Assembly: GCA_004292855.1 (NCBI GenBank)
Contig: RDXN01000075.1
Span: 1-54,285, forward strand
Length of the DNA: 54,285 nt
Direction of reading: 5' to 3'
From: Cytophagales bacterium
Lineage (GTDB): Bacteria; Bacteroidota; Bacteroidia; Cytophagales; Spirosomataceae
Numbering within the stretch: the stretch's first letter is position 1; every line of letters begins with the position of its first letter. The notes beneath the pieces are model-generated. The model was not told the DNA's origin, did not search any database, and saw only the letters and a list, made by a program, of their open reading frames with translations. The position numbers were made by a program, and so were the translations under genes. Positions 37,794 through 53,757 of the stretch are shown here, one piece after another.

Positions 37794-38321
37794 ATGACCA
37801 TCAAAATAGGCATTATCAACGTATCGGATCGGGCAAGCGCGGGCGTATACGAGGACATTCCCGGCAAAGCCGTTGTCGATCTTTTAAATCGCTACCTGAC
37901 CTGCCCGTGGGAACCCGTGTACCGCGTGATCCCCGACGAGCAGGACCAACTCTCGGCGGCCTTTATCGACATGGCCGATACCCAACAATGCTGCCTGATT
38001 GTAACGACTGGCGGCACCGGCCCGGCCCTTCGCGACGTAACACCCGAAGCGACCGAGGCCGTTTGCCAAAAAATGCTGCCCGGCTTTGGTGAACTGATGC
38101 GGCAGGAAAGTTTGAAATACGTACCTACGGCCATTTTATCGCGCCAAACGGCGGGCATCCGGGGCAGTACCTTGTTGTTAAATTTGCCCGGTCGGCCACG
38201 AGCCATTGAGCAGTGTTTGTCGGTGGTGTTTCCGGCTATTCCCTATTGCATCGACCTGATCGGCGGACCATTTCTAACAACCGACGAAGCCGTGATGCCG
38301 GTTTTCAGGCCGAAGGGGTAA
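37794..38321 (+). CDS. mogA: Molybdopterin adenylyltransferase
   Basis: 175 residues with the MogA/MoaB fold: IGIINVSDRASAGVYEDIPGKAV at the start, TTGGTGPALRDVTPEATEAV (the GGTG-x3-RD nucleotide site) and GIRGSTLLLNLPGRPRAIEQCL. It adenylates molybdopterin before Mo insertion. The MogA reading is favoured over MoaB by the N-terminus and length, but the two are hard to separate. ATG at 37794 follows the phosphodiesterase closely; a shared transcript is likely. Confidence 0.88.
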   Translation: MTIKIGIINVSDRASAGVYEDIPGKAVVDLLNRYLTCPWEPVYRVIPDEQDQLSAAFIDMADTQQCCLIVTTGGTGPALRDVTPEATEAVCQKMLPGFGELMRQESLKYVPTAILSRQTAGIRGSTLLLNLPGRPRAIEQCLSVVFPAIPYCIDLIGGPFLTTDEAVMPVFRPKG

Positions 38322-38364
38322 CTGCTAGTAAAAATTACTGACTCATGAGGCCTTCGATTACCCC

Positions 38365-38469
38365 TGTCCGCAACCGAACGAACCCGTCCGATTGCGGACA
38401 GTTTTCGTTATTCAACTATCGGCAATCCGCTCAATATGAGCGACTTATTTTTCCGGTATGGGATTTGAA
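38365..38469 (+). promoter_or_regulatory. Tandem dyads plus -24/-12-like element before the first permease operon
   Basis: Two 16-bp dyads of the type TGTCCG-n4-CGGACA lie at 38365-38380 (imperfect) and 38385-38400, 20 bp apart. After 54 bp comes CCGGTATGGGATTTGAA (38453-38469), which fits a sigma-54 box at GG and TTTG but has GA instead of GC at -12. The permease ATG is at 38505. Confidence 0.6.
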
Positions 38470-38504
38470 CGTTCATCCGCAAACGACTTCAGACTTGTTT
38501 GCAT

Positions 38505-40928
38505 ATGCTACGCTCCTACCTTAAAATCGCCTTCCGAACGCTGTGGAAACACAAAACTCATAGCCTTATCAATGTAGTGGGCCTATCGGTGGCGGTTGCT
38601 ACCTGCCTGTTGCTGTTTCTGACGGCTTCTTACCAGTTTTCCTTCGACCGGTTCCACCTGAAAGGCGACCGCATCTACCAGCTTTACTACACCTCGACCA
38701 ATCGCGATGGAGTCGAAGAGAAAAACGGGAGCATGCAGTACCCGCTTACGCCAGCGCTTCGGGCCGAGTTCCCCGAAATTAGGAGTATTACCCGCGTGAA
38801 AGGGGGTGGTGGTGGCATCCGCTACGGCGAACAGACGTTCGCCAAATCGGTAAAAACAGTCGATGCCGATTTTCTGACGATGTTCACGTTCCCAATGGTC
38901 AAGGGCGATGCTAAAACCGCCCTGAACGACCTGAACAATGTGGTCATCAGTCAGAACATGGCTGATGACGTGTTTGGGAAGGTCGACCCGATGGGCAAAA
39001 CCCTGCTCATTAATCAGGATGGCACCTGGCGCAACTTCGTGGTAACGGGCGTCCTTACGGATCATCCCGAAAACTCCAGCGAGCAATACGAAGCCCTAGT
39101 ACGCACCGAAATTGGCCCAAGCTACACCGAAGTGAAAGATCAGTGGGGAGCAAGCGATCACTCGGTTTATGTGGAGTTGGCCGAAAACACCGACCCTGAG
39201 GTTATCGAAAAACGATTCGAGGTTTTTGTACAGAAATACCAGGGCGGCAATCTTACCGACCGTAACAAACAGGGGTACGCCAAAAACAGTCGGGGCCAAC
39301 AGCTCAGTTTGTTGTTGTTACCCTTGTCGGAAGTTCATTTTACGACCGACCTGGTGAGCGGTAATGGCATCAGCAAAACCTATGTCTATACGCTACTACT
39401 CATTGGTCTATTTATTCTGGCTATTGCCTGCATTAACTTTATCAATCTAACCATTGCGCAGGCCGTGACGCGGGCGCGGGAGGTAGGCGTTCGCAAATCG
39501 CTGGGGGCTGGACAAGGGCAGTTGTTCGCGCAAATTTGGGGCGAAACGGGTTTGCTTTGTTTAGTCTCGTTGCTGTTAGGGCTGGGGTTAGCCTACGGCC
39601 TGTTACCGCAGTTCAACAAACTGTTTCGGGCCAACATTAGCCTACAAAACTTCCTGACGCCCCAAGCCTTGCTAGCCACTGGCCTCGGCTTTGTGGGCAT
39701 CACACTGGCAGCCGGTGGGTATCCATCGTGGTTCGTCACCCGGTTCAACGTAGTGCAGGTATTGAAAGGGAAAATCAAATTAGGTAAGCCGGGAGTACTC
39801 CGTAACTCGCTCATCGTCACACAGTTTACGATTGCCAGTTTGCTTATCGGCTGTACGTTGGTGATGGTGCAGCAATTGAAATACCTGCGCGAACGGCCCA
39901 TCGGCCTCAATCAGGAGCAGGTAATTAGCCTACCCGTCCGCATGGATACCGATGGCAACACTGTACTGCGGCAAATGCGCAACCAACTCGCCAACCAACC
40001 CAGCGTTCTGGCTGTGACCGGCTCGGGCGTAAACATAGGCAACGGGCTGGATGGCAGTTCGTCGCGGCACATGTACGGCTTCGACTACAACAAACGCCCG
40101 GTGCTGTGCGACTGGCTTCGGGTTGACTTCGATTACTTGAAAACGCTGGATATCAAGCTCTTGCAGGGCCGGGATTTCAGCCCGCAATTCGGCACCGACA
40201 CCTCGGCATCCGTGCTGGTGTCGCAGAGTTTTGCGAAGATGATGGGCGAGAAGAACCCCGTCGGCAAGTTTATTCAGCCCGACTCGGCAAAGGGCAAGTT
40301 TCAGGTGATTGGCGTGGTGAACGACTTCAACCTGTACTCGCTCCACGAAAAAGCCGAGCCGATTGTGTTGCATGTTCAACCCCAAAAAGCTCTCCGTTAC
40401 GTGTTGGTGCGGGTGCGGCCCGACAACCTGACCGGGTCGATGGAGATCGTGAAAACTGCCTGGCTGGCCGTCAACCCCAAAGCCGAGTTCAACGGCTCGT
40501 TCGTGAGCGAAAACACCGACCGCTGGTATCGGCGTGAGCAACGGCTGTCGTCGATTTTCACCACGGCGGCTGGCATTGCCATTTTGCTGTCGTGCATGGG
40601 CCTGTTTGCTATCGCGCTCATCAGCATTGAGCAACGCACCAAAGAAATTGGCGTGCGCAAGGTGCTCGGGGCGAGTGTGGGCAGTATTGTCGCCCTGATT
40701 TCGAGCGACTTCCTGAAACTGGTGCTGGTCGCTATTCTGCTCGCAACCCCACTGGCGTGGTGGTTTATGAGCCGCTGGCTCGCCGACTTCGCCTACCAAA
40801 TCGACATGCCCTGGTGGGTCTTCGGCCTGACAGGCCTGATGGCCGTGCTGATCGCCTTTGCCACCATTGCCTACCAAAGCATCCGGGCGGCCCTGATGAA
40901 TCCGGTGAAGAGTTTGCGCAGTGAATAA
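38505..40928 (+). CDS. FtsX/MacB-type ABC permease (first of operon)
   Basis: 807 residues from ATG 38505. First helix at about 22-42, periplasmic MacB-type core domain at about 50-270, FtsX helices at about 293-313, 348-368 and 385-408, then a second half: helix at about 436-458, second periplasmic domain at about 465-665 and FtsX helices to the end. Each half has the coupling motif, REVGVRKSLGA (about 325) and KEIGVRKVLGA (about 715), that contacts an ATPase. Such permeases move lipoproteins or peptides or transmit force; no ATPase gene is near, so it must borrow one. Last residues NPVKSLRSE. Confidence 0.88.
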   Translation: MLRSYLKIAFRTLWKHKTHSLINVVGLSVAVATCLLLFLTASYQFSFDRFHLKGDRIYQLYYTSTNRDGVEEKNGSMQYPLTPALRAEFPEIRSITRVKGGGGGIRYGEQTFAKSVKTVDADFLTMFTFPMVKGDAKTALNDLNNVVISQNMADDVFGKVDPMGKTLLINQDGTWRNFVVTGVLTDHPENSSEQYEALVRTEIGPSYTEVKDQWGASDHSVYVELAENTDPEVIEKRFEVFVQKYQGGNLTDRNKQGYAKNSRGQQLSLLLLPLSEVHFTTDLVSGNGISKTYVYTLLLIGLFILAIACINFINLTIAQAVTRAREVGVRKSLGAGQGQLFAQIWGETGLLCLVSLLLGLGLAYGLLPQFNKLFRANISLQNFLTPQALLATGLGFVGITLAAGGYPSWFVTRFNVVQVLKGKIKLGKPGVLRNSLIVTQFTIASLLIGCTLVMVQQLKYLRERPIGLNQEQVISLPVRMDTDGNTVLRQMRNQLANQPSVLAVTGSGVNIGNGLDGSSSRHMYGFDYNKRPVLCDWLRVDFDYLKTLDIKLLQGRDFSPQFGTDTSASVLVSQSFAKMMGEKNPVGKFIQPDSAKGKFQVIGVVNDFNLYSLHEKAEPIVLHVQPQKALRYVLVRVRPDNLTGSMEIVKTAWLAVNPKAEFNGSFVSENTDRWYRREQRLSSIFTTAAGIAILLSCMGLFAIALISIEQRTKEIGVRKVLGASVGSIVALISSDFLKLVLVAILLATPLAWWFMSRWLADFAYQIDMPWWVFGLTGLMAVLIAFATIAYQSIRAALMNPVKSLRSE

Positions 40929-40940
40929 ACAACAAACATC

Positions 40941-43358
40941 ATGTTCAGAAACTATCTCAAAATCGCCTGGCGGAATATCGTCACCAACAAGGCTTATTCG
41001 GCCATCAACATTGGCGGGCTGGCCGTGGGTATGGCGGCAACGCTGCTCATTTTTCAATACGTGGCTTTTGAACGGAGCTACGACCGTTTTCATGAGCATG
41101 CCGACCGGATTTTCCGGGTAACAGCCCAGCGTTTCGACAAAGGTGTTCTGTCGACAGAATGGGCAGGGGGTCCGTTTGCCGCTGGCAATCATCTGAAAGC
41201 TGCGTTTCAGGAAGTAGAGGAGTACACCCGGTTCTATGTTCGGAATAACCTGTTGCTGGAAGCCAACGACCGAAAATATAAAGTAGAGCAGGGAGCCTTT
41301 GCCATGCCCTCGTTTTTCACGGTATTTTCGTTTCCGTTGCTGTCTGGCGACCAGAAAACGGCCCTGACCGAACCCAACACGGGCGTCATTTCGACGGCTC
41401 TAGCGAAACGTTTATTTGGCGCGACAAATCCGCTGGGCAAGGTAATCACGATAGAACGCGAATTTCCGATCAGGATAACGGGCGTTTATGCCGATTTCCC
41501 CAAAAACTCGCACCTCAAAGCCGATTACCTGCTGTCGTTCAGCACGTTTCAACGATTGGTGAACCCCCGAAACGAAGCGGATAAAGTGTTCGATAATGCC
41601 TGGAACTGGGACGGTTGTCTCACGTATTTGCTGCTGAATAAGTCGGCGAACCCCGCAAAGTTAGAAGCTAAATTCCCGAATCTGCTGCTGGCAAAAGAGC
41701 AAACAGACGCCAAAACGGGCGATGGACTCCACCTATTCCTGCAACCCCTGGCCGACATTCATTTGCATTCCCATTTGATGTTTGAAGCCAGCCCCAACGG
41801 CGATGGGAATTCGGTGTATGTGTTGCTGTGCGTTGCCTTTTTCATCATTGCCATTGCCTGGATCAACTACATCAATCTGGCAACCGCACGGGCCGTTGGG
41901 CGGGCAAAGGAAGTGGGCGTGCGGAAGGCCGTTGGGTCGCACCGCAGTCAGTTGATTAAGCAGTTCATGATCGAATCGGCTCTGCTCAATTTTCTGGCGG
42001 TCGTTACTGCTTTTTTCGGGATCATGGCGGCTCTTCCCCTGTTCAATCAGTTCACCGATCAACAGTTGACCTATTCGTTTGTGTGGTCGGGGCAGTTTTG
42101 GCTCGCTTTGGGTGTGATGTATGCTATTGGAACCGTGCTGTCGGGGGCATACCCGGCCTTTGTTTTGTCTCGGTTCAACCCAATCTCGGTGCTAAAAAAC
42201 GGCATTTCGTCGTTTAAAGAAGGTGTTTTCCTGCGCAAGTCGCTGGTTGTTATCCAGTTTTCGGCTTCGGTTTTTCTGCTGGTAGGCACCATCACGGTAT
42301 TTCGCCAATTGCAGTTTATGCGGAGCCAAAATCTCGGCATCGACATTGGCCAAACCCTGGTGTTAGACAAACCCATCAACGACTCGACCCGGGTTAACCA
42401 AACGAAGGCATTTAAAACGTACTTGCTTGGGCAATCGTCTATCCGAAGTGTAGCCGTGTCGGGCAACATACCCGGCGAAAAAGTGGAGTTTAATGCCGGT
42501 GGCATTCGCCTGGCCGGAACCCCGGAAGCAACCGGCAAGCAGTACCGCGTCATTGGGGTTGACCACGATTTTGTGAATGCCTTTGGGATGAAGGTGATTG
42601 CCGGGCGCAACTTCGATGCGAAGCTGGGCGAGAAAGATGCTGTGGTGTTCAACCGGACGGGAATCAGGCAGTTAGGCTTTGCCAGCCCGGAGAAAGCGTT
42701 GGGTCAGAAAATTGATTTTTGGGGCGACATGCTCACGATTGTTGGTGTGGTAGACGATTTCCATCAGCAGTCGCTTCGCGAAGCCTTTGAACCCCTTATC
42801 CTGCGTTTAGACCCCGGTGTGAATGGGCAATTTTCCATTAAGCTGGCCGACGGTAATCCCACGCAGGCCATTGCTACGGTGAAGCAGGCCTGGTCGCAAT
42901 TCTTCCCAACCGACCCCTTTGTGTATTCATTTTTGAACGAGCGTTACGACAAACAATATCGCGCCGATGAGCGATTCGGGCAGGTGTTCGGCTTTTTTAC
43001 GCTGTTGGCCGTGCTGGTTGCCTGTTTGGGGTTGCTGGGCCTCGCCACGTTCACCGCCCAACAACGAACCAAAGAAATCGGCGTACGTAAAGTGCTGGGA
43101 GCCAGTGTTGGAAGCATTGTAACGCTGCTCTCCAAAGATTTTTTGAAGCTGGTTCTGATTGCCATTGTCATTGCATCGCCCCTGGCCTGGTACGCCATGC
43201 ACCAATGGCTACAGGACTTCGCCTACAAGATCGATATTGAGTGGTGGGTCTTTGCACTGGCGGGGTTGCTGGCCGTAGGCATTGCCCTGCTGACAGTGAG
43301 CTTCCAAAGCATCAAAGCGGCCCTGATGAATCCGGTGAAATCCCTTCGATCTGAATAA
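40941..43358 (+). CDS. FtsX/MacB-type ABC permease (second of operon)
   Basis: 805 residues, starting 12 bp after the first permease. It differs from its neighbour mainly in the periplasmic domains (for example RFDKGVLSTEWAGGPFAAGNHLKAAFQEVEEYTRFYV), suggesting a different ligand. Both coupling motifs are intact: KEVGVRKAVGSHRSQLIKQ (about 325) and KEIGVRKVLGASVGSIVTLLSKDFLKLV. Ends in NPVKSLRSE. Confidence 0.87.
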   Translation: MFRNYLKIAWRNIVTNKAYSAINIGGLAVGMAATLLIFQYVAFERSYDRFHEHADRIFRVTAQRFDKGVLSTEWAGGPFAAGNHLKAAFQEVEEYTRFYVRNNLLLEANDRKYKVEQGAFAMPSFFTVFSFPLLSGDQKTALTEPNTGVISTALAKRLFGATNPLGKVITIEREFPIRITGVYADFPKNSHLKADYLLSFSTFQRLVNPRNEADKVFDNAWNWDGCLTYLLLNKSANPAKLEAKFPNLLLAKEQTDAKTGDGLHLFLQPLADIHLHSHLMFEASPNGDGNSVYVLLCVAFFIIAIAWINYINLATARAVGRAKEVGVRKAVGSHRSQLIKQFMIESALLNFLAVVTAFFGIMAALPLFNQFTDQQLTYSFVWSGQFWLALGVMYAIGTVLSGAYPAFVLSRFNPISVLKNGISSFKEGVFLRKSLVVIQFSASVFLLVGTITVFRQLQFMRSQNLGIDIGQTLVLDKPINDSTRVNQTKAFKTYLLGQSSIRSVAVSGNIPGEKVEFNAGGIRLAGTPEATGKQYRVIGVDHDFVNAFGMKVIAGRNFDAKLGEKDAVVFNRTGIRQLGFASPEKALGQKIDFWGDMLTIVGVVDDFHQQSLREAFEPLILRLDPGVNGQFSIKLADGNPTQAIATVKQAWSQFFPTDPFVYSFLNERYDKQYRADERFGQVFGFFTLLAVLVACLGLLGLATFTAQQRTKEIGVRKVLGASVGSIVTLLSKDFLKLVLIAIVIASPLAWYAMHQWLQDFAYKIDIEWWVFALAGLLAVGIALLTVSFQSIKAALMNPVKSLRSE

Positions 43359-43361
43359 GCC

Positions 43362-45779
43362 ATGCTCCGAAACTACCTAAAAATCGCGTTTCGCAGCCTA
43401 CTCAAGCACCGGCTGTATGCGGGCATCAACATTGTCGGGCTGGCGTTGGGCATGGCTTGTGCGCTGCTCATTGGCTTGTGGGTGGGCGACGAACTCCGCT
43501 ACAATCGGTTCCTGCCCCACGTCGACGATACGTTTCTGGCGCGGGTAAATTTTAACTTCCAAGGGGGCGAAACCACCACAATGGCCTACTCGCCCGGCCC
43601 CTTGCCCGATGCCATCATGCGCGACATCCCGGGCGTGGCAGCCGCCACCAAAACCAGTTCGGGGCGGGAGTTGCTGTTTAAAGCGGTAGGCAGCACAAGC
43701 GGCACCAACGAGCAGGGGCATTTTGTATCGGATCGGTTTTTTGAGGTGTTCGATCTGCCTATCCTCGCCGGGGACCCCAAAACCGCCCTCGCGCAACCCG
43801 ACAACCTGGTGATCTCCCGCCGATTGGCCGAAAAGCTTTTCGGCGGAAAACGGGCAATAGGAAAGGCCGTCCAGGTCGATAACGGTAGGATCTATACGGT
43901 AGGCGCGGTACTGGAAAATATACCCCATACCTCCACGCTTCACTTCGACTGGCTGGCCCGGTTCGAGAACGAAAACGAGCCGTGGATGCAGGAGTGGGGT
44001 ATGAATTCGTTTTTGACCTACGTCCGGCTTAAACCAGCCACGCTCGACCAATCGGCGCGGGTGGCGCAGGCCGAAGGGCATCTAAAAAACATCTACCGCC
44101 GATACGTCAAGTTCAACAACAACGAGCAGGTGATTTTGCAACCCCTGGCCGATCTGCATCTGTATGGCGAGTACAAAGATGGCCGGGTGGCGGGTGGCCG
44201 CATCGAGTACGTCCGGCTGTTTGGTATTGTAGCCCTGTTTATTCTGCTCATTGCCTGCATCAACTTCATGAACCTGAGCACGGCCCGCTCGGCCATTCGC
44301 GCCAAAGAGGTGGGCGTAAGGAAGGTAGTGGGTGCGGGCCGGGCCTCGCTCATGGGGCAGTTTCTGGCCGAGTCGACACTCACGAGTCTGATGGCCGTTG
44401 GCTTGGCCCTGCTCCTGACGAAGGCTGTTTTACCCCTGTTCAACACCCAGTTTGATCAGGCGTTGACGCTCAGCCTGGAGAATCCCCTGTTGTGGGGCCT
44501 GGTGGGTGGTCTGGTGCTGGTTACAGGCGTGTTGTCGGGGAGTTATCCGGCCCTGTTTCTGTCGGGTTTGCAGCCGGTCAGCGTTCTGAAAGGGGCCAAT
44601 GCTGCGTTGGGGCTGCGGTTGGGCGCGGGCCGACGGGCTGCGTCGGGGGCTACGTTCCGGCGGGTGTTGGTGGTGTTTCAGTTTGCCCTGTCGGTGTTTC
44701 TGATGGTGGGCATGGTGGTGGTGGGGCGGCAAATGCACTTCCTGCGCACCAAAAACCTCGGTCTCGACCGTGAGAACGTGTTGTACATTCCACTCGAAGG
44801 CAATCTTTCCGAACGCATCGACGCGTTTCGGCAGGAGGTACTCCGGTTGCCTGCCGTAGCCTCGGCCACTCCCACCAATCACCTGCCCATGAATGTCCAG
44901 AGCAACACCACCGACCTGCGTTGGCCCGGTCAGGTCGAGGGGCAACTGGCGAGCGTGTACACGATGAATGTGGGTCGCGATTTTGTAAAAACGATGAACA
45001 TCAAGCTCCTCGACGGGCGCGACTTTGGTCCCAACACTCGCGCCGACTCCGCCAACTACCTCATCAACGAAGCTGCGGCAAAGCTAATCGGCGAATCCGC
45101 GCCGGGTGTGAATTCGCCCGTGGGGCGGGAGATCACGTTCACGAATGGCAAAGGGCGGGTTATTGGTCTGATGAAAGACTTCCATCTGGCCTCCATGCAC
45201 GAGACCATCGGGCCGTTGGTGCTGGTGCTGAACCCCACCAACACGCAGTACCTGCTGGTGAAAACCCGCGCCGGACAAACCGAGTCGGCCCTGGCTGGTC
45301 TGGCCAAACTAACCCGGCAGTTCAACCCGACGTATCCGTTCAGTTACCATTTTCTCGACGAAGCCTACGAACGGCTTTACCGCGCCGAAGGGCAAGTGGG
45401 CACGCTCGTGAACTTGTTTGGTGGGCTGGCCATCCTGATCTCGTGCCTGGGTCTGTTTGCCCTGGCTGCGTTTATGGCCGAGCAACGCACCAAAGAAATT
45501 GGCGTCCGCAAGGTGCTGGGTGCGAGCGTCATGGGTATTGTGAGTTTGCTCTCCAAAGACTTCCTGAAACTGGTGTTGATTGCCCTCGCGGTGGCCACTC
45601 CGCCCGCGTGGTGGGCCGCCGACCGCTGGCTTGGGGGCTTCGCCTACCACACCGAACTTACCGGCTGGCTCTTCGTCCTGACGGGTCTGCTGGCCGTGAG
45701 CATTGCCCTGCTCACGGTCGCCTACCAAAGCATCCGGGCCGCGCTGATGAATCCGGTTCAATCACTGCGGTCGGAGTGA
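43362..45779 (+). CDS. FtsX/MacB-type ABC permease (third of operon)
   Basis: 805 residues, beginning three bases after the preceding stop, so translation is probably coupled. Compared with the other four it has a longer basic cytosolic stretch between the halves (NAALGLRLGAGRRAASGATFRR, about 408-430) and lacks the usual aromatic in the last helix region (WWAADRWLGGFAYHTEL). Coupling motifs KEVGVRKVVGAGRASLMGQ and KEIGVRKVLGASVMGIVSLLSKDFLKLV are intact. Ends NPVQSLRSE. Confidence 0.87.
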   Translation: MLRNYLKIAFRSLLKHRLYAGINIVGLALGMACALLIGLWVGDELRYNRFLPHVDDTFLARVNFNFQGGETTTMAYSPGPLPDAIMRDIPGVAAATKTSSGRELLFKAVGSTSGTNEQGHFVSDRFFEVFDLPILAGDPKTALAQPDNLVISRRLAEKLFGGKRAIGKAVQVDNGRIYTVGAVLENIPHTSTLHFDWLARFENENEPWMQEWGMNSFLTYVRLKPATLDQSARVAQAEGHLKNIYRRYVKFNNNEQVILQPLADLHLYGEYKDGRVAGGRIEYVRLFGIVALFILLIACINFMNLSTARSAIRAKEVGVRKVVGAGRASLMGQFLAESTLTSLMAVGLALLLTKAVLPLFNTQFDQALTLSLENPLLWGLVGGLVLVTGVLSGSYPALFLSGLQPVSVLKGANAALGLRLGAGRRAASGATFRRVLVVFQFALSVFLMVGMVVVGRQMHFLRTKNLGLDRENVLYIPLEGNLSERIDAFRQEVLRLPAVASATPTNHLPMNVQSNTTDLRWPGQVEGQLASVYTMNVGRDFVKTMNIKLLDGRDFGPNTRADSANYLINEAAAKLIGESAPGVNSPVGREITFTNGKGRVIGLMKDFHLASMHETIGPLVLVLNPTNTQYLLVKTRAGQTESALAGLAKLTRQFNPTYPFSYHFLDEAYERLYRAEGQVGTLVNLFGGLAILISCLGLFALAAFMAEQRTKEIGVRKVLGASVMGIVSLLSKDFLKLVLIALAVATPPAWWAADRWLGGFAYHTELTGWLFVLTGLLAVSIALLTVAYQSIRAALMNPVQSLRSE

Positions 45780-45791
45780 GCAAGTGTTGTA

Positions 45792-47825
45792 CTACATGCC
45801 ACGTTTCTCTTTCATTTTCTGGATTAGCCCCTGAACGTCTTGCAGGTCGCAACTGGCCCGGATATCGGCAGCAAGCACGCCAAGATTCAACGCTTCCTGC
45901 TTTGCTTTAAAGAGTTCCCAGTTGAACTGCAACAGAAAGTTGGCAGCGGCTATAGCTCCACGTCTAAACAAATCAATTTGTTCGTCAGGGGGAAGGTTAA
46001 AATTCAGCCAGTTAATGTCCCGAACGTCGATGCAGGCCAGGCAATCCTCAAATTGCGGATGCGTGATGAGAAAATCTTTGTCATAATTGGCTCGCATAGT
46101 GTTGATAATAGAGCCGCCAAGTCCACCCAACGACGCAACCGACCGCGAATCTTCGGCGTCTTCATCGTCGAGTCTTGCCCCAAAGGTTGGTAATCGGGGC
46201 GTTGCCGCCCGAGTCGGGCTAAAAACGTTTATGGGGAAATTAGAGATAGACCCTCCGTCGATAAAAACGGCTTCTTTGATTTCGTTTCCATCGTAACTCA
46301 AGTACTGCATCCATTCGTTGGCGCGTTCGGCCCGCTTGGGAATATTATTCAGGCGAAAAGCCTCAAAGAAAAACGGAATCGACATAGACGCCCGTACAAA
46401 ATCGGCGGGGGAGGTATGGTCTTTGTCGGCATAAAAAAGACGCCACATTTTAGGGAAGATGATCTTGTTTTCGGTCACGATCTCCGTTGTAATCAACGCG
46501 AGTGGCGGCTCATCTTCATCGGGTTCGTATTTATCAAGCCCTGCCAACACCTGTGAATCCTGAAGTTTGTAGTTCGAAATGTGCGTACCATCTTCATCGT
46601 CGGGCCGATACACCAGTGGGGGAATACTCTTGAGTTTGGCTTCCAGATCACGCAGCGTGCGGATACCGTTTCTTGGGTTTTTGATATGGACCTTTTCGCC
46701 GGACTTCAGCAGGTAAGTTGCATCGACGTTCCCATTCTCCATGAGGTCGGCGATCCAGTTTTTGAAGGCATCGCCGGGATTAATTCCGAATCGACTCTTG
46801 CTGAATCGGGCATATAGAAAAATGGATATGCTCCCCATAAGCAAGGCGAAAAAGATGAACAACGACATCCCCGACACCGACAAGTACTGGTAAGAACTAG
46901 TCTCTGAGGTTGCCTCACGAATAAAGGGCGAACAATACCAGACTTGTATGTTGAAAAATTTATTGAGGATACCATCGGCCAACACAATGCTCAGTAATGC
47001 CGCCACGATCCATTGAATAAACGGCGAGTGTTCTCGCTTCGGTTTGATGCCAAGCCAGATTGTGTACAGCAGTAACCCTAAAAGAAGCAGTAAAGCGATA
47101 ATTTCCTGGTACCACCCGCAGGTTTTGTTGGGTATGGTAGCTAATCCCATCACGGTTAGTAGCAGAAGAATAATGGACCCAAATGCCCCCAGAAAGAAGC
47201 GGCTCAGCAGGTATTTGGTAATAATGCCGTTGCTGATAAGCCCTCTCTTAAATAACAACAGCGAGGCCAGATAGGCAACAATCAACCCCCAAAAAACGAC
47301 TGAAATGGTATTGTCCTTCCAGAGAAGCATACTACTGAATAAAACGAGCGACAGGGCCGTGAGGAGCGTAAAAACCGCCGACTTAAACAGACCACTCAGA
47401 AAATCTTTATAGTTGATGTTGCTTTTCAGAAGCCATCGGGCAATCGGATGGCCATCCACAAAGTCGAACAGGTTTTTTTGGGTGAGGTAGTACAGAATGA
47501 TGGGTGACCGTTTGGTAGCAGGATCATCCGGTCGAACAACCGCCATCAGAGCTGCATTGATGGCTCCGGCACTAGTGCCAGCCAGTTTTAGAAAACGAAT
47601 TCCCATACACTCCATCACATACGTATAACCCAGCAGGGCAATCCCCAACACACCGCCACCCTCCTGTACTAGATTGACGTATTGATGTCCCTGGGTATCG
47701 AAAACATCCGAAACGCGTATTTTTTGGGTTCCTAAATCATTTTTAAGTCCTGCCACAACGCCATCGCCTGTTTCGAGCAGGGATTTTAGCAGGCTATTCC
47801 GAATTTCTTGTTCTTCTGGTTGCAT
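45792..47825 (-). CDS. Patatin-like phospholipase with an inserted membrane domain
   Basis: 677 residues. The patatin parts are split: NLVQEGGGVLGIALLGY (oxyanion turn) and LAGTSAGAIN with nucleophile Ser85 at the front, and AVFIDGGSISNFPINVF with catalytic Asp523 far behind. In between, about 140-360, are seven or so hydrophobic stretches (for example FGSIILLLLTVMGLATIP, IIALLLLLGLLLYTIWLG) not found in ordinary patatins. The enzyme probably cleaves membrane lipids from a membrane-anchored position. It lies on the opposite strand, tail to tail with the three-permease operon, and its start faces the next permease leader. Confidence 0.8.
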   Translation of the reverse strand: MQPEEQEIRNSLLKSLLETGDGVVAGLKNDLGTQKIRVSDVFDTQGHQYVNLVQEGGGVLGIALLGYTYVMECMGIRFLKLAGTSAGAINAALMAVVRPDDPATKRSPIILYYLTQKNLFDFVDGHPIARWLLKSNINYKDFLSGLFKSAVFTLLTALSLVLFSSMLLWKDNTISVVFWGLIVAYLASLLLFKRGLISNGIITKYLLSRFFLGAFGSIILLLLTVMGLATIPNKTCGWYQEIIALLLLLGLLLYTIWLGIKPKREHSPFIQWIVAALLSIVLADGILNKFFNIQVWYCSPFIREATSETSSYQYLSVSGMSLFIFFALLMGSISIFLYARFSKSRFGINPGDAFKNWIADLMENGNVDATYLLKSGEKVHIKNPRNGIRTLRDLEAKLKSIPPLVYRPDDEDGTHISNYKLQDSQVLAGLDKYEPDEDEPPLALITTEIVTENKIIFPKMWRLFYADKDHTSPADFVRASMSIPFFFEAFRLNNIPKRAERANEWMQYLSYDGNEIKEAVFIDGGSISNFPINVFSPTRAATPRLPTFGARLDDEDAEDSRSVASLGGLGGSIINTMRANYDKDFLITHPQFEDCLACIDVRDINWLNFNLPPDEQIDLFRRGAIAAANFLLQFNWELFKAKQEALNLGVLAADIRASCDLQDVQGLIQKMKEKRGM

Positions 47826-47981
47826 GGTGTTTCGTATTGTTCGAGTGAAAGAGGAATTATTACCGGAAATGAGAATCAGAAAAGGCCGTAACAGATACAG
47901 AGCTAAAAGGTCGAATGAAGTTTAGTCGTACCTGGCAAAGCTATCGAAAACATTGGCTAATCCGGAACTCTTGCTCACCCT

Positions 47982-48086
47982 TGTCCGCAAGCGAACAAAA
48001 CCGTCCGATTGCGGACAGTTTATGCACTATATTGATTCGCAAATAACTCACTGTAAACAACTTGCCTTTTCGGTATGGGATTTGAA
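47982..48086 (+). promoter_or_regulatory. Second copy of the tandem-dyad and -24/-12-like leader
   Basis: Dyads at 47982-47997 (imperfect) and 48002-48017 (CGTCCGATTGCGGACA, identical to the first leader), then after 54 bp TCGGTATGGGATTTGAA (48070-48086). The spacing equals that of the first leader to the base. The rest of the 298-bp gap upstream shows nothing else I can support. Confidence 0.6.
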
Positions 48087-48123
48087 CAGATCATTTGCAG
48101 AAGATTCTAAGCCCGGCTTTCGT

Positions 48124-50556
48124 ATGCTACGCTCCTACCTCAAAATTGCCTTCCGCACGCTGTGGAAACACAAGACCCACACCACCATCAACATCGTCGG
48201 CCTTTCGGTAGCGTTTGCCAGCGCGACCCTGCTCCTGCTCACGGCTTGGTTCGAGTGGAGCTTCGACCGGTTCCACGCTGACGCCGACCGCATTTACCGG
48301 GTCTACATACAGGATGCCACCGGCGAAGCATCGGGCATTATGCCCTACCCACTAGCTCCCGCCCTGAAAACCGAAATGGCCGACGCCCAAGCCGTTACGC
48401 GCCTGATGTTCCCTCAAACCGAGTTTGTGGGCGAGAAACGCCTGGCCAAGCAAATCCGCTTTGCCGACCCCGACGTGTTCCAGACGTTTACGTTCCCCCT
48501 GCTCAAAGGCGACCCTAAGACGGCCCTAAAAGACATCAACAACATGGTCATCACCGAAGACATGGCCCGCGACCTCTTCGGCAACACCAACCCCATTGGC
48601 AAATCCATCCGCACAGACGGGCTGAACACGGGCCGCGACTTTGTAATTACGGGCGTCATGGCCAAGCCCCGCGCCAACTCCAGCTTTCAGTTCGACGCCT
48701 TTGTGCGGCCCGAAACCCGCGTTGACTACCCCACCGGCAAGGCCGAGTGGGGCAACCGAAACCACGAGATTTACCTCAAACTGAAACCGGGTATCGACCC
48801 GCTCACTGCCGAGAAAAGGCTTCAGTCGCTTACCCGCAAATACTGGCAGGGCGACATTGCCGAGGCCAAACGCCGGGGCGAAAAACCCGACGCGCGGGGC
48901 GAGTACATCAGCCTGCGGCTGCAACCGTTGAGCGATATCCGGTTCGACACAAAGGGCGTGTTTGGCACGGGCATCAGCAAAACATACATCGTTGCACTGG
49001 CTCTGATTGCCCTGTTTATTTTGCTGATTGCGGGTATCAACTACGTAAATCTGTCGTTGGCCCGGTCGGTAGCGCGGGCGCGGGAGGTAGGCGTTCGGAA
49101 GTCGCTGGGGGCACTGGCGGGGCAGTTGTTCGGGCAGTTCTGGGCCGAGTCGCTCGTCATTTGTTTACTGGCGTTGGGGGCCGGGTTGGGGATGGCGTTT
49201 GCGGCTCGCCCATTGTTCAACCAAACGTTCGACACCCGGCTTTCGCTCGATTTACTCCTGCAACCTGTCACGTTGGGAGCTATTGGGGTGGTGTTTCTCC
49301 TGCTTACGCTGCTCACGGGCGGCTACCCGGCCTGGCTCATGGCGCGGTTCCGGGCCGTGACGGTTCTGAAGGGGGGCGGGGCACTCTTGCGGGCTAAAGG
49401 CTCCAAGGTTGGTGCGTTGCGGTCGGTACTGATTGTGGCCCAATTTGCCTTGGCGAGTCTGCTTATCACCTGCACCTTGCTCATTGGGCAGCAACTCCGC
49501 TACCTGCGCGAAAAGCCCCTCGGCTTCACCCGCGAGCAGGTCATTAGCCTGCCCCTGCGCAACCAGGACAACCTGAGTGGCACCCGCGCCATGCAACTCC
49601 TCCGCGACCGGCTACAGAACAACCCCGACGTGGTGGCTATTGCAAAAACAAATGCCAACATCGGTCCGGGCTTAGATGGCAACATGAGCCGGAGCATGAG
49701 CGGCTGGACGCACAAAAATCGTGAGGTAAACACCGATTGGGTCAAAGCTGATTTTGGTTACCTGAAAACCCTGGGTCTTAAACTGGTAGCCGGTCGGGAC
49801 TTTGACCCCTCGTTTGGCACCGACACCACCTCGGCGGTTATCATTACGGAAAGTATGGCAAAACAATTAGGCGAGAAGAACCTGGTGGGAACGTTCATCC
49901 AACCGGAAGCCGAAACGGGCGGGCAAAAGTACCAGATCATTGGCGTTGTGGCCGACTTCAATCTGTACTCGCTCCGCCAAAAGGCCGAACCCGTTACGCT
50001 GCATCTGAACCCCGGCGGCACAAACTATGCGCTGATCCGCACAACCCCACAGGGCACGGTCCGGGTGATGGACGAGCTACGAAAAATCTGGAAAGAAGTG
50101 GCCCCCACGGCCCAATTTCAGGCCTCGTTTATCGACGAAAACACCAACCGCTGGTACAACCGCGAAGAACGCTTCTCGACCATGTTCCGCATGGCGGCTG
50201 CCCTTACCATCCTGCTCTCGTGCATGGGTCTGTTTGCCGTCGCGCTCATGACCATCGAGCAGAGAACCAAAGAAATCGGCGTCCGTAAAGTATTGGGAGC
50301 CAGCGTTGCGAGTATCGTTACGTTGCTCTCTAAGGACTTCCTGAAGCTGGTGTCGTTTGCTATTGTGCTAGCCTCGCCCCTCGCCTGGTATGCCATGAAC
50401 CGCTGGCTAGCCGACTTCGCCTACAAAATCGACATCGAATGGTGGGTGTTCGCAGTGGCCGGTGGGCTGGCGGTGGGCATTGCCCTATTGACGGTCTCGT
50501 TTCAATCAATCAAGGCGGCCCTGATGAACCCGGTGAAGAGTTTGCGGAGCGAATAA
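48124..50556 (+). CDS. FtsX/MacB-type ABC permease (single-gene unit)
   Basis: 810 residues from ATG 48124; an in-frame start at 47953 lies upstream of the promoter element and is rejected. The first 60 residues are very close to the 38505 permease (MLRSYLKIAFRTLWKHKTH), the periplasmic parts less so. Coupling motifs REVGVRKSLGALAGQLFGQ and KEIGVRKVLGASVASIVTLLSKDFLKLV are intact. It ends NPVKSLRSE and is followed by a strong terminator at 50601-50662. Confidence 0.88.
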   Translation: MLRSYLKIAFRTLWKHKTHTTINIVGLSVAFASATLLLLTAWFEWSFDRFHADADRIYRVYIQDATGEASGIMPYPLAPALKTEMADAQAVTRLMFPQTEFVGEKRLAKQIRFADPDVFQTFTFPLLKGDPKTALKDINNMVITEDMARDLFGNTNPIGKSIRTDGLNTGRDFVITGVMAKPRANSSFQFDAFVRPETRVDYPTGKAEWGNRNHEIYLKLKPGIDPLTAEKRLQSLTRKYWQGDIAEAKRRGEKPDARGEYISLRLQPLSDIRFDTKGVFGTGISKTYIVALALIALFILLIAGINYVNLSLARSVARAREVGVRKSLGALAGQLFGQFWAESLVICLLALGAGLGMAFAARPLFNQTFDTRLSLDLLLQPVTLGAIGVVFLLLTLLTGGYPAWLMARFRAVTVLKGGGALLRAKGSKVGALRSVLIVAQFALASLLITCTLLIGQQLRYLREKPLGFTREQVISLPLRNQDNLSGTRAMQLLRDRLQNNPDVVAIAKTNANIGPGLDGNMSRSMSGWTHKNREVNTDWVKADFGYLKTLGLKLVAGRDFDPSFGTDTTSAVIITESMAKQLGEKNLVGTFIQPEAETGGQKYQIIGVVADFNLYSLRQKAEPVTLHLNPGGTNYALIRTTPQGTVRVMDELRKIWKEVAPTAQFQASFIDENTNRWYNREERFSTMFRMAAALTILLSCMGLFAVALMTIEQRTKEIGVRKVLGASVASIVTLLSKDFLKLVSFAIVLASPLAWYAMNRWLADFAYKIDIEWWVFAVAGGLAVGIALLTVSFQSIKAALMNPVKSLRSE

Positions 50557-50561
50557 CTGGC

Positions 50562-50598
50562 TGTCCCCACCCGTACATATTCTGTCCGTTAATGGACA
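50562..50598 (+). promoter_or_regulatory. Tandem dyads before the padR-permease operon
   Basis: TGTCCCCACCCGTACA (50562-50577) and TGTCCGTTAATGGACA (50583-50598), 21 bp apart, fit the same TGTCCG-n4-CGGACA pattern as the two other permease leaders. The first begins five bases after the preceding permease's stop codon. Confidence 0.55.
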
Positions 50599-50600
50599 AA

Positions 50601-50662
50601 CAAAACGGTCGTTTCTGAGCAGAAAGCCTTTTCTGAGCCAGAAATGACCGTTTTGTTTTTTT
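50601..50662 (+). terminator. Strong intrinsic terminator between permease and padR
   Basis: CAAAACGGTCGTTTCTG (50601-50617) pairs with CAGAAATGACCGTTTTG (50639-50655) over 17 bp with one G-U pair, followed by seven T (50656-50662). It ends the 48124-50556 transcript and lies between the dyads and the next promoter. Confidence 0.9.
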
Positions 50663-50677
50663 GGCAGTTGATTTGCT
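50661..50677 (+). promoter_or_regulatory. Sigma-54 (-24/-12) promoter of padR
   Basis: TTGGCAGTTGATTTGCT has GG, ten bases, then GC, and agrees with the sigma-54 consensus at TTGGCA and TTTGCT. It lies 27 bp upstream of the padR ATG at 50705. Confidence 0.65.
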
Positions 50678-50704
50678 CAGCAAAGATAGAGTTAATCAAA
50701 AACC

Positions 50705-51043
50705 ATGAAACGAACCTACTTAGGCGAGTTTGAAGAGATTGTGCTGCTACTGGTGGCGAGTCTGGACGGCGATGCCTACGGCGTCGGCATTACGCATAAG
50801 CTGAACGAGGAAACCGACCGCTCAGTACGGCTCAATCAGGTCCACGCGGCCCTGCACCGGTTGCAGGAGAAAGGCATGGTGGCCTCGCGGCTGGGCGACC
50901 CCACACCCGAACGCGGGGGCCGGCGTAAGCTGCTGTTCACCGTAACGGCCTACGGCTACCGGACTTTGCAGGAGATCAAGGCCGTGCGGGCGCAATTGTG
51001 GAGTTCCGTACCGATCACGCCAAAACTTGCTACCGGTTTATGA
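50705..51043 (+). CDS. PadR-family transcriptional regulator
   Basis: 112 residues with the PadR winged helix: FEEIVLLLVASLDGDAYGVGITHKLNEETDRSVRLNQVHAALHRLQEKGMVASRLGD (about 10-70), then the wing TPERGGRRKLLFTVTAYGYRTLQEI. PadR proteins usually repress neighbouring transport or envelope genes and respond to a ligand or protein partner. Its stop overlaps the permease ATG as ATGA, so the two are translationally coupled; PadR genes paired with prefix-domain permeases are a known arrangement. Confidence 0.92.
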   Translation: MKRTYLGEFEEIVLLLVASLDGDAYGVGITHKLNEETDRSVRLNQVHAALHRLQEKGMVASRLGDPTPERGGRRKLLFTVTAYGYRTLQEIKAVRAQLWSSVPITPKLATGL

Positions 51044-53757
51044 AACCCAACTCTCAAGCCCCTTCTCCGAATCGTCGGACCCCACCCCGCCTTGCCGACC
51101 GTCTGCTGGAATGGTTCGTGGCTCCGCACAGGCTCGAAGCCTTACAGGGCGACCTCCACGAGGAGTTCGCGTATCAGGTTGAGCGGGTGGGCTTTCAGCG
51201 GGCGCGGTGGCACTACTGGCGCGACGTGCTGGGCTTTATGCGGCCCTGGGCGATGAAAAGAGGGCAAAGTGAGTATCCAAATCCAACCAATACAGACATG
51301 ATCCAGAATTATCTGAAAATTGCTTGGCGGAGCTTGACGCGCCATCGGAGTTTTACGAGCCTGAACGTGCTGGGCCTAAGCGTGGGTGTAGCCGCAGCCC
51401 TACTCCTGTTTATGACGGTGCGCTACGAACTGAGCTTTGATACATTTCACACCGAATCCGACCGGATTTACCGCGTCGTTCGGGAGCAGATTCTCGCTAG
51501 TGGCGATAAAGAGGTAACGCCGGGGAATCCGTTGCCGATGGCAGCAGCCCTCAAAACCGATATTGCCCAGTTCGAGGCAGTTGTTCCGGTTTTCGGAACG
51601 CTCGATCCGCAGGTGACCGTGCTGGGCAGCGATCCCAACGCAACTAAAGCTACAACCAAGTTTCTGGAAGACGACGAGGGTATGCTTGTTGGGCCGGAGT
51701 TCTTTCGTCTGTTCAACTTTCCGTGGCTCATTGGCCGGCCCGATGCCCTGGCGCAACCGAACGTAATAGCTCTGTCGAAGACGTTTGCCGAGAAGTATTT
51801 TGGCGATGCACAGCAGGCAGTTGGCAAATTTCTGCGCATCAATAACCACACAACCATGCGCGTCGTAGGCGTACTGGCCGATGCGCCCCCCAATACGTCC
51901 TTCCCCATGAATCTGATGATTTCGTACGCGACGAAGAAAGCCGACAAAGGCGAACGATACGGCTTTGGTTCGTTTGAGGATTGGGGCGGCACGTCGAGCA
52001 ATGACCAGATTTTTGTCCGGCTGCCGCGTAACTTCCCGGTTGCCGCAGCCGATGCCCTCTTGAAAAAATTCTCGCTCAAACACTATGACAAACGGGTCGA
52101 CAGCGATCAGAAGACGCATTCTCTTAGCCCACTCGCCGACCTGCACCACGACAATCGGTTCGATACATTTACGAACAAAGTGGCGGTCGTGCCGCTACAG
52201 CGTATCTGGAACTTAGCTGTTGTAGGGGGGCTGTTACTGCTGATGGCCTGTGTCAACTTCGTCAACATTGCCTCGGCACTGGCGACCCGGCGGGCCAAAG
52301 AAGTAGGCGTTCGGAAAGTGTTGGGGAGTCAGAAAAGTCAGTTGGTCGCGCAGTTTCTCACCGAAACCTTCCTGATGGTGCTGGCATCGCTGGTGCTGGG
52401 CGTTGCACTCACCTACGTTGCCTTACCACTACTGAACACACTCTTTGCTGTCCCTGCTGATGCTTCGTTGTATTTCAACGCGGATCTGGGCTTGGCCCTG
52501 TTGGGGTTACTGGTTTTGCTTACGTTACTGTCGGGTCTATATCCGGCCCTAGTGCTGGCGTCATTTTCTCCGCTCGACGTATTTCGGAAGCAGATCGCCC
52601 GGGGTTGGCTGCGCGGCATTTCGGTACGCCAAAGCCTGATCGTATTCCAGTTTGCGACGGCACTGGTGCTCATTATCAGCACGATGATCAACCTTCGGCA
52701 GATGGATTACCTGAGTCGGATGGACACCGGTTTTAGCAAGGAGGGTGTGTTCAACTTCAGCCTGGACACCGAATACCGTACCCGAAACGCGACCTTACGT
52801 AACGAACTGCTCCGGGTTCCGGGCGTTGCTGCCGTTACGTTCTCGTCGGATATGCCTTCTTCTGACAGCAGATGGCAAAGTACATTTGCCTTCAAGAACC
52901 TCTCAAAAAACGAAGACTTCATTGCATCACTGAAAATGGCCGACGGGGACTACTTCAAAACGTATGGGATACGCTTTGTTGCGGGTGCCCCCTACGCGGT
53001 CGGTGATACGCTCCCCAAGTTTGTAGTCAACGAAACACTACTCAAAAAGCTGGGAGTGAAGAATCCGGCAACGGTCATTGGTCGAAACCTACGATTAGGC
53101 GATGTTACCGGCCCTATTGTGGGCGTTGTAAAAGACTTTCACACAAACTCGGCACGAGACGGAGGAGTTCCACGGGCTGGGGGTATTCAGCCAATACTTC
53201 TTACACCCTCGAATGGATTCTATTACGCAGGCAGCGTAAAAATACGCTCGCAAAACCTGCCGCAAACGGTAGAACGTATTAAGGCCGTTTATGCTCGTGT
53301 TTTTCCTGAGGTGGCGTTTATCAGTCGTTTTTACGACGAAGCTCTGAATGCCTATTATAAAGCGGAGCAGCAGATGGGGTTGCTGTACCGCGTTTTCGCC
53401 GGGTTGACGATATTCATTGCTTGTCTGGGGCTGTTCGGATTAGCTGCCTTCACGGCAGAGCAACGTACCAAAGAAATCGGTGTTCGTAAGGTGCTCGGCG
53501 CGTCGGTGGCCGGTATCATTACGCTGCTTTCCAAAGACTTTCTCAAACTGGTGCTGGTTGCCATTCTCATTGCGTCGCCAATTGCCTGGTATCTAATGAA
53601 TGCGTGGCTTCAGGATTTTACCTATCGCATCGACATCGAGTGGTGGGTATTCGCGCTGGCAGGCTTGCTGGCAGTGAGTATTGCCCTGCTCACGGTCTCG
53701 TTTCAATCAATCAAAGCCGCGTTGATGAACCCGGTGAAGAGTTTGCGGAGCGAATAA
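51040..53757 (+). CDS. FtsX/MacB-type ABC permease with N-terminal prefix domain
   Basis: 905 residues from ATG 51040. Residues about 10-75 (RLADRLLEWFVAPHRLEAL, GDLHEEFAYQVERVG, WHYWRDVLGFMRPW) form a 'permease prefix domain 2' not found in the other four; it is seen in permeases paired with PadR and may contact that regulator. From about 88 the protein follows the common plan, starting MIQNYLKIAWRSLTRH. Coupling motifs KEVGVRKVLGSQKSQLVAQ and KEIGVRKVLGASVAGIITLLSKDFLKLV are intact. Ends NPVKSLRSE. Confidence 0.9.
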   Translation: MKPNSQAPSPNRRTPPRLADRLLEWFVAPHRLEALQGDLHEEFAYQVERVGFQRARWHYWRDVLGFMRPWAMKRGQSEYPNPTNTDMIQNYLKIAWRSLTRHRSFTSLNVLGLSVGVAAALLLFMTVRYELSFDTFHTESDRIYRVVREQILASGDKEVTPGNPLPMAAALKTDIAQFEAVVPVFGTLDPQVTVLGSDPNATKATTKFLEDDEGMLVGPEFFRLFNFPWLIGRPDALAQPNVIALSKTFAEKYFGDAQQAVGKFLRINNHTTMRVVGVLADAPPNTSFPMNLMISYATKKADKGERYGFGSFEDWGGTSSNDQIFVRLPRNFPVAAADALLKKFSLKHYDKRVDSDQKTHSLSPLADLHHDNRFDTFTNKVAVVPLQRIWNLAVVGGLLLLMACVNFVNIASALATRRAKEVGVRKVLGSQKSQLVAQFLTETFLMVLASLVLGVALTYVALPLLNTLFAVPADASLYFNADLGLALLGLLVLLTLLSGLYPALVLASFSPLDVFRKQIARGWLRGISVRQSLIVFQFATALVLIISTMINLRQMDYLSRMDTGFSKEGVFNFSLDTEYRTRNATLRNELLRVPGVAAVTFSSDMPSSDSRWQSTFAFKNLSKNEDFIASLKMADGDYFKTYGIRFVAGAPYAVGDTLPKFVVNETLLKKLGVKNPATVIGRNLRLGDVTGPIVGVVKDFHTNSARDGGVPRAGGIQPILLTPSNGFYYAGSVKIRSQNLPQTVERIKAVYARVFPEVAFISRFYDEALNAYYKAEQQMGLLYRVFAGLTIFIACLGLFGLAAFTAEQRTKEIGVRKVLGASVAGIITLLSKDFLKLVLVAILIASPIAWYLMNAWLQDFTYRIDIEWWVFALAGLLAVSIALLTVSFQSIKAALMNPVKSLRSE

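Follow-up and report, generated by a model that had tools for sequence, protein, structure and literature searches.

A predicted sigma-54 regulon of duplicated FtsX-type permeases in a Cytophagales bacterium, with paired enhancer-like dyads and a variant -12 element

Regulators of the NtrC, AtoC and ZraR type combine a receiver, an AAA+ domain (PF00158) and a Fis-type helix-turn-helix (HTH), and they go together with paired dyads upstream of -24/-12 promoters. Within the Bacteroidota, the sigma-54 regulon SM4 of Flavobacterium psychrophilum offers mapped starts with -24/-12 elements, groESL among them, and a theme of envelope stress (PMC9723704). A survey further reports an excess of sigma-54 promoters on COG0577 permeases of Bacteroidia, Gammaproteobacteria and Opitutia, which it presents as first evidence of this link (PMC12316311, PLoS One 2025). 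Here we analyze the 54,285-nucleotide contig RDXN01000075.1 (the window; contig C23 of genome G000) from the 6.25 Mb genome of a Cytophagales bacterium (GCA_004292855.1). Three of its transcription units encode duplicated MacB_PCD/FtsX permeases: three in a row (from 38505), a single one (from 48124), and one preceded by a PadR gene (from 50705). With a probability of about 0.87, their three leaders can be read as sigma-54 promoters of one regulon under an NtrC-type activator that would act through shared enhancer dyads.

How does this compare with what has been described? Sigma-54 combined with an enhancer-binding protein is a known kind of control, while the parts of this regulon and its variant at -12 are new. 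In the parts covered here, the survey assigns the permeases neither an activator nor an enhancer site, a spacing rule or an array, and gives the consensus TGGCACN5-7TTGCT (PMC12316311); activator, enhancer, spacing rule and -12 change are added in the present work. The table of selected SM4 promoters contains no permease array in the part covered, and the accompanying text calls the elements typical (PMC9723704). The NtrC box given in the covered part of PMC8743547 is a different sequence from the dyad TGTCCG-n4-CGGACA. A literature search, conducted mostly outside subscription journals and thus weak evidence of absence, found no publication naming this activator, dyad or -12 change, and the top matches to the strings TGTCCG/CGGACA were one sigma-54 structure paper and otherwise unrelated work.

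The architecture of the leaders had been noticed in a sequence-only reading of the window. Both dyads are present in all three leaders where that reading had put them, with centres 20, 20 and 21 bp apart (Table 1). Its distances of 54, 54 and 64 bp to the box also agree with ours, as 53, 53 and 63 bases separate the second dyad from the 16-base box, so that GG starts 54, 54 and 64 on. The full sigma-54 box it saw in unit 3 is the sole exact match to TGGCANNNNNNTTGCW in the window, where matches with at most two mismatches number 121 against 102.8 expected. Single dyads are no commoner than chance: those with at most three mismatches number 29 in the window against 27.3 expected, and those with at most two number 221 genome-wide against 338 for a reversed control. 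The signal therefore lies in the combination of close match, pairing and box.

Dyads with at most one mismatch occur at 19 places in the genome, of which 13 precede permease, ABC-transporter or activator genes. Among the remaining six, five fall inside mechanically called open reading frames (ORFs) of at least 150 codons and one (C100:49109) outside such ORFs; no composite is listed at the latter. Stretches around close dyads yielded eleven sites in this genome: the three of the window, C96:41401, 48541 and 57220, C82:1640, C42:27433, C18:28806 (minus), C7:22504 and C74:189137 (minus), the last with an imperfect first dyad. Their boxes follow after 53-55 bases, or after 63-64 in three of them (50562, 48541 and 189137). 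The 63-base class holds two PadR-led units here but the third (C42) has 53, so there is no PadR rule.

The same arrangement recurs in relatives. We define the composite as two TGTCCG-n4-CGGACA dyads with centres 20-22 bp apart, followed after 51-55 or 63-66 bp by GG-N10-G. Related genomes, too, hold many copies of such permeases (29 searched, with this one among them), and the sample comprised the permease clusters of nine relatives plus this genome, with 858,117 bases and 188 permeases. A scan with position weight matrices (PWMs) found 50 dyad pairs, compared with a mean of 0.27 (maximum 7) for 30 permuted half-site controls. Of all dyad spacings tried from 16 to 39, only 20, 21 and 22 were seen (49 pairs at a higher cut-off). 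A box scoring at least 8 lies within 20-119 bases of 47 of the 50 pairs: 37 at 51-55, nine at 63-66 and one at 41. These two clusters of offsets bear out the earlier suggestion that the 10-bp difference is one helical turn. Helical phasing of this sort is expected for looping enhancers of sigma-54 activators.

Dyads plus box precede 42 of 113 heads of permease units and none of 75 internal permeases (control mean 0.05; ten genomes). By genome, the fraction of heads with a composite ranges from 0/2 (G013) to 10/15 (G010), with 9/16 in this genome. In the 46 good composites the distance from box to permease ATG is 45-133 bases in 23, about 411-416 in two, and 621-689, the PadR-type spacing, in seven; for 14 there is no permease within 800 bases. 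A listing at a looser cut-off holds 60 composites, some of which are one pair read in both directions. The sequences are related by descent — sites in G001 and G002 are near-identical, as are those of several Pontibacter and Ferruginibacter loci — so these counts are not independent events.

Which protein might read these sites? The genome has seven strong PF00158 matches. Our candidate, G000:C96:36890-38269, combines receiver, AAA+ domain (PF00158) and Fis-type HTH (HTH_8), and lies one gene away from a dyad-led operon for an HlyD-type adaptor, an ABC ATPase and a 792-residue permease. It scores below every cut-off of the 25 NCBIfam models listed, the best being PEP_resp_reg (358.9 of 502.6) and AtoC (347.2 of 714). 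Homologues were collected at 75 loci in named genomes, from Spirosoma and Ferruginibacter to Woeseiaceae and other Proteobacteria. An ABC ATPase signature lies upstream of the activator on the opposite strand in 26 of 39 loci examined. A dyad-pair scan of the 75 loci gave 17 pairs in 17 loci, compared with 0-2 for five control palindromes; all 17 have a box on the diverging strand, and a few sit 2-8 kb from the activator. A focused scan of 63 loci, leaving out partial, truncated or distant matches (L094, L127, L130-L135, L137-L140), found the composite in 30, compared with 0/63 in the downstream stretch and 4/63 on the opposite strand. The recognition helix [ST]R-x-[AS]LYRR is present in all 44 homologues read of the 75, 30 with and 14 without a found composite. 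Among genomes with at least ten permease matches, 13 of 15 have an activator match with E<1e-145, compared with 4 of 14 among those with fewer (this genome counted). No single observation argues more strongly for the proposed pairing of activator and site than the conservation of activator, operon and enhancer in two phyla.

These results, together with the search of the genome for dyad pairs and -24/-12 boxes before FtsX-type permeases with an NtrC-type gene among them, which came out positive, strongly support one part of the earlier claim that a single sigma-54 enhancer-binding protein switches on the whole permease array. The arrangement recurs, its geometry is fixed, an NtrC-type gene lies nearby and it is conserved across phyla, all of which points to one activator working through shared dyads. 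The other part, the whole array, did not stand, with the composite at just 42/113 unit heads overall and 9/16 here. The regulon is also wider than the permeases, as an adaptor-ATPase operon and an ATPase-TolC-adaptor operon are composite-led as well.

The mechanism would then be the following. Dimers of the C96 activator probably occupy each dyad pair, some 85-120 bp upstream of the start. Once bound, the activator would assemble its AAA+ ring, loop to the sigma-54 polymerase parked on GG-N10-G and remodel that polymerase, the loop having one of two lengths that differ by a helical turn. We infer binding by this activator from its proximity to the sites and from the conserved recognition helix, and we take its action to be activation, not repression. 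The inducing signal is probably envelope or antimicrobial-peptide stress, sensed by a kinase for which C67:21303-22667 is the candidate. This histidine kinase is 62% identical to the ORF beside the Fibrisoma activator. The ORF directly after the activator encodes a HATPase_c protein in both relatives run against Pfam (L099, L128), a likeness to NtrC-type pairs with their linked kinase. Unlike in those pairs, the C67 candidate is unlinked from the activator in this genome, where no kinase stands beside the activator and its neighbour is a choice-of-anchor I protein. A pattern search for kinases near the activator matched none in 39 loci, the pattern being too strict (ORFs directly downstream exist).

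Further observations concern the activator loci themselves. The 923-residue choice-of-anchor I protein gene (L058:5506-8274, minus) lies between activator and adaptor operon, and the other stretches read contained no relative of it. Repeats of the GAGTGAAA type flank it towards the activator, and similar repeats stand ahead of the adaptor gene, a possible insertion. Upstream of the activator in this genome there is one good dyad (C96:38385-38400) and no clean box downstream of it. In G005:C2 (L195, around base 1015) boxes of equal quality lie at 65 bases on either side of the pair that stands between activator and adaptor, possibly a two-way promoter that would also drive the activator. The four opposite-strand scores (L092, L099, L100, L103) may be of the same two-way kind, bearing on autoregulation of the activator. 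In G004, which has 18 permease matches, an activator homologue occupies two adjacent pieces (C6:3319474-3320828; 53% and 54% identity), its frame seemingly broken.

Several points weigh against a single regulon of this kind. A recognisable composite is missing from 71 of the 113 unit heads and, at activator loci, from 33 of 63 inside the 3.5 kb scanned. Four of the 50 pairs are without a passing box at the usual places, three with weaker GG boxes at 63, 66 and 67 and one (G005) with none. Some of the same sites served to train the PWMs, in which GG has a heavy weight, and GG was required in the scans of unit heads and activator loci, so GG in 46/46 composites is partly by construction; as to pairing and spacing, the permuted controls and the relatives outside PWM training are still in agreement. 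Most boxes lack the -12 C and would count as weak by the textbook consensus. Two high-permease genomes, G003 (71% complete) and G004 (with its two adjacent pieces), are without an intact close activator match. A paralogous activator, C74:82897-84255, 45% identical and with a similar HTH, could share the sites.

The last point leads to the alternative that survives best, namely that the sites belong to a sigma-54 activator other than C96, such as the C74 paralogue, or are shared by two paralogues. The number of strong PF00158 matches in this genome leaves room for it, and the paralogue has a related HTH (ITRFALYRRLEKYGL) and also lies near MacB-type permeases. Yet a scan of C74:76001-94000 listed no composite near the paralogue, while pairs lie close to the C96-type activator in both Bacteroidota and Proteobacteria, and we regard this alternative as unlikely.

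Less probable still, at odds of a small fraction, is that the dyads are operators of a repressor or of a sigma-A activator, for example PadR, and that GG...TTTG is a sigma-A -7 box or chance. TTTG does resemble the Bacteroidota -7 box TAnnTTTG as given in the covered part of PMC9723704, and a PadR gene comes first in one of the three units. The base counts of the 46 composites led us to reject the -7 box: the TA of TAnnTTTG is not kept, in contrast to GG (which the PWM favours), the A in fifth position and T-T/G-G at -12. Moreover, the dyads keep a fixed distance of 51-55 or 63-66 upstream of the box, where an enhancer and not an operator would be expected, PadR matches occur at just 11 places in all stretches read, and the activator is of sigma-54 type.

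That the leaders are alike merely through duplication of permease units with their upstream DNA, without regulatory meaning, is hardly credible: units 1 and 2 are indeed paralogues (53% protein identity) with shared leader bases, but their spacer has fallen to 51.9% identity while 34 of 37 positions of the dyad block are identical, and the composite is found, too, ahead of unrelated genes (adaptor, ATPase, PadR), while homologous activator loci of another phylum retain it. The box-to-ATG part of the two leaders is 71.7% identical. An earlier statement that the leaders are better conserved than much of the coding sequence is correct only in part: identity is 69.7% for leader 1 vs 2 and 62.5% for the genes, and gene windows of 140 columns range from 51 to 76%. 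An Rfam search of 38300-50800 at gathering thresholds found no RNA element in the leaders.

Returning to the sigma-54 promoters, what should be made of their -12 element? In the window, unit 3 has GC and units 1 and 2 have GA. The 46 Bacteroidota composites carry GG at -24 in 46 and, after N10, the G in 42; the base following this G is A in 20, G in 13, T in seven and C in six, so that C is absent in 40/46 and the GC doublet is not kept. These counts may lean toward the bases of the 24 Bacteroidota boxes on which the -24/-12 PWM was trained, GG and -12 base included. In the proteobacterial composites the -12 C is present in all ten (L111, L113, L115, L116, L118, L120, L123, L125, L126, L128); L119, a dyad pair without a box, stands outside this set.

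The groES promoters of class Bacteroidia provide a second set, with groES being reported as sigma-54-dependent in F. psychrophilum and B. thetaiotaomicron in the covered parts of PMC9723704 and PMC12316311. For groES and RpoN alike we used the 30 best-scoring loci (of 40 and 61 genomes searched), and the groES site was the best-scoring one within 180 bp, by a score blind to the -12 base but not to GG. A TGGCAY-N6-nnG-like site precedes groES in 27 of the 30 loci (L244-L273), 41-96 bases before the start codon. TGGCA is found in the best site of 28/30 loci compared with 13/90 control stretches, and a score of at least 8 (maximum 9) in 27/30 compared with 7/90, a control rate at which about 2/30 groES sites could be chance. 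From this difference, sigma-54 control of groESL looks class-wide. The base in question is A in 16, C in nine, T in three and G in two, so C is absent in 21/30; Fisher p-values for the groES comparison are 2e-7 and 1e-4, for loci that are related by descent and not independent events. As the -12 miss is common to two unrelated promoter sets in the phylum, it is no peculiarity of the leaders described here. GA need not be seen as a defect of the -12 element, where the phylum has A more often than any other base.

A change in sigma-54 itself accompanies this loss. The genome has one PF04552 match, on C66 (L057:532-1983), which aligns near full-length to solved sigma-54 chains. In the closed complex, H377, S379 and R383 recognise the GC (PMC9770992, covered in part), and E378 and R383, described as highly conserved, crosslink to DNA (PMC5505868, likewise in part). 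Numbered on chain 9mse_M, the RpoN of this genome keeps S379 and R383 and has Asp-Val at 377-378, compared with His377-Glu378 in E. coli. Asp-Ile (28) or Asp-Val (1) occupies these positions in all 29 readable of the 30 Bacteroidota loci (L214-L243; L237 unreadable). The comparison beyond Bacteroidota draws on the PDB alignment and on the papers' statements of conservation. The changed residues appear to match the lost -12 base, a correlation.

On the side of the targets, the core operon has the composite ahead of its adaptor in this genome and in G001, G002, G010, G013, G017 and G018, and an ATPase is composite-led in C7 and G017; in C7, genes for a TolC-type protein and an adaptor come next. 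Nine clusters (6-27 permeases) each hold one or two such ATPases, and six others (4-13 permeases), the window's cluster included, hold none. Permeases, adaptor and ATPase match DarB, DarC and DarD of the darobactin exporter DarBCD but stay below the equivalog cut-offs (DarB 122-161 of 700, DarC 195 of 450, DarD 271 of 375). Three permeases tested against the ADOP model TIGR03434 match at 300-314 bits compared with a cut-off of 622.3, related but not members. RAST labels such genes acidobacterial duplicated orphan permeases, with 28 and 33 copies in two Dyadobacter (PMC11573002, covered in part). Judged by these matches, the targets look like a DarBCD/MacAB-like peptide exporter with an adaptor, one or two ATPases and many separately expressed permeases. 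We infer an exporter for envelope or peptide stress whose many permeases would share few ATPases. A DUF4097 gene is composite-led in G017; the proteins whose genes the composite leads include a DUF4097 'toastrack' protein (L190:2682-3716) and a 192-residue secreted-looking one (L177:17884-18459). A patatin-like phospholipase lies between permease units of the window (45792-47825, minus), and the gene after the Ferruginibacter activator (L089:11540-12577) starts with a patatin-like sequence, judged by eye.

Table 1 Features of the three permease units and their leaders (window positions)
Feature	Position	Strand	Remarks
Enhancer-like dyad 1, unit 1	38365..38380	+	TGTCCGCAACCGAACG; 2 mismatches to TGTCCGNNNNCGGACA
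Enhancer-like dyad 2, unit 1	38385..38400	+	CGTCCGATTGCGGACA; 1 mismatch
-24/-12 element, unit 1	38454..38469	+	CGGTATGGGATTTGAA; 53 bases past dyad 2
Duplicated MacB_PCD/FtsX permease, first gene of unit 1	38505..40928	+	ADOP/DarB-like, below cut-off
Second permease, unit 1	40941..43358	+	Duplicated MacB_PCD/FtsX type
Third permease, unit 1	43362..45779	+	Duplicated MacB_PCD/FtsX type
Dyad 1, unit 2	47982..47997	+	TGTCCGCAAGCGAACA; 1 mismatch
Dyad 2, unit 2	48002..48017	+	CGTCCGATTGCGGACA; 1 mismatch
-24/-12 element, unit 2	48071..48086	+	CGGTATGGGATTTGAA; 53 bases past dyad 2
Duplicated FtsX permease, unit 2	48124..50556	+	74-75% identical protein in two same-genus genomes
Dyad 1, unit 3	50562..50577	+	TGTCCCCACCCGTACA; 2 mismatches
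Dyad 2, unit 3	50583..50598	+	TGTCCGTTAATGGACA; 1 mismatch
-24/-12 element, unit 3	50662..50677	+	TGGCAGTTGATTTGCT; 63 bases past dyad 2 (one-turn-longer class)
PadR-family regulator, first gene of unit 3	50705..50998	+	PF03551
Permease with prefix domain 2, second gene of unit 3	50998..53757	+	NF038404 above cut-off

For permeases that are annotated as orphan and of unknown function, a candidate activator, a site and a spacing rule are now given, and tying them to a defined adaptor and ATPase makes their role testable. Tentatively, and as a possibility we would not yet favour, the two lines can be joined: Bacteroidota sigma-54 might read G alone instead of GC by way of Asp-Ile/Val in place of His377-Glu378, and in the Spirosoma/Rudanella group one activator might act through such promoters to switch on jointly one or two exporter ATPases with their adaptors and dozens of interchangeable permeases, a mix-and-match peptide exporter. 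The -12 C is usually absent in Bacteroidota, so that searches with the usual consensus may miss sigma-54 promoters there, and the changed residues suggest a reason. If this is true, promoter prediction in Bacteroidota, gut species included, could be corrected, and the phylum would offer a natural experiment on how sigma-54 reads DNA.

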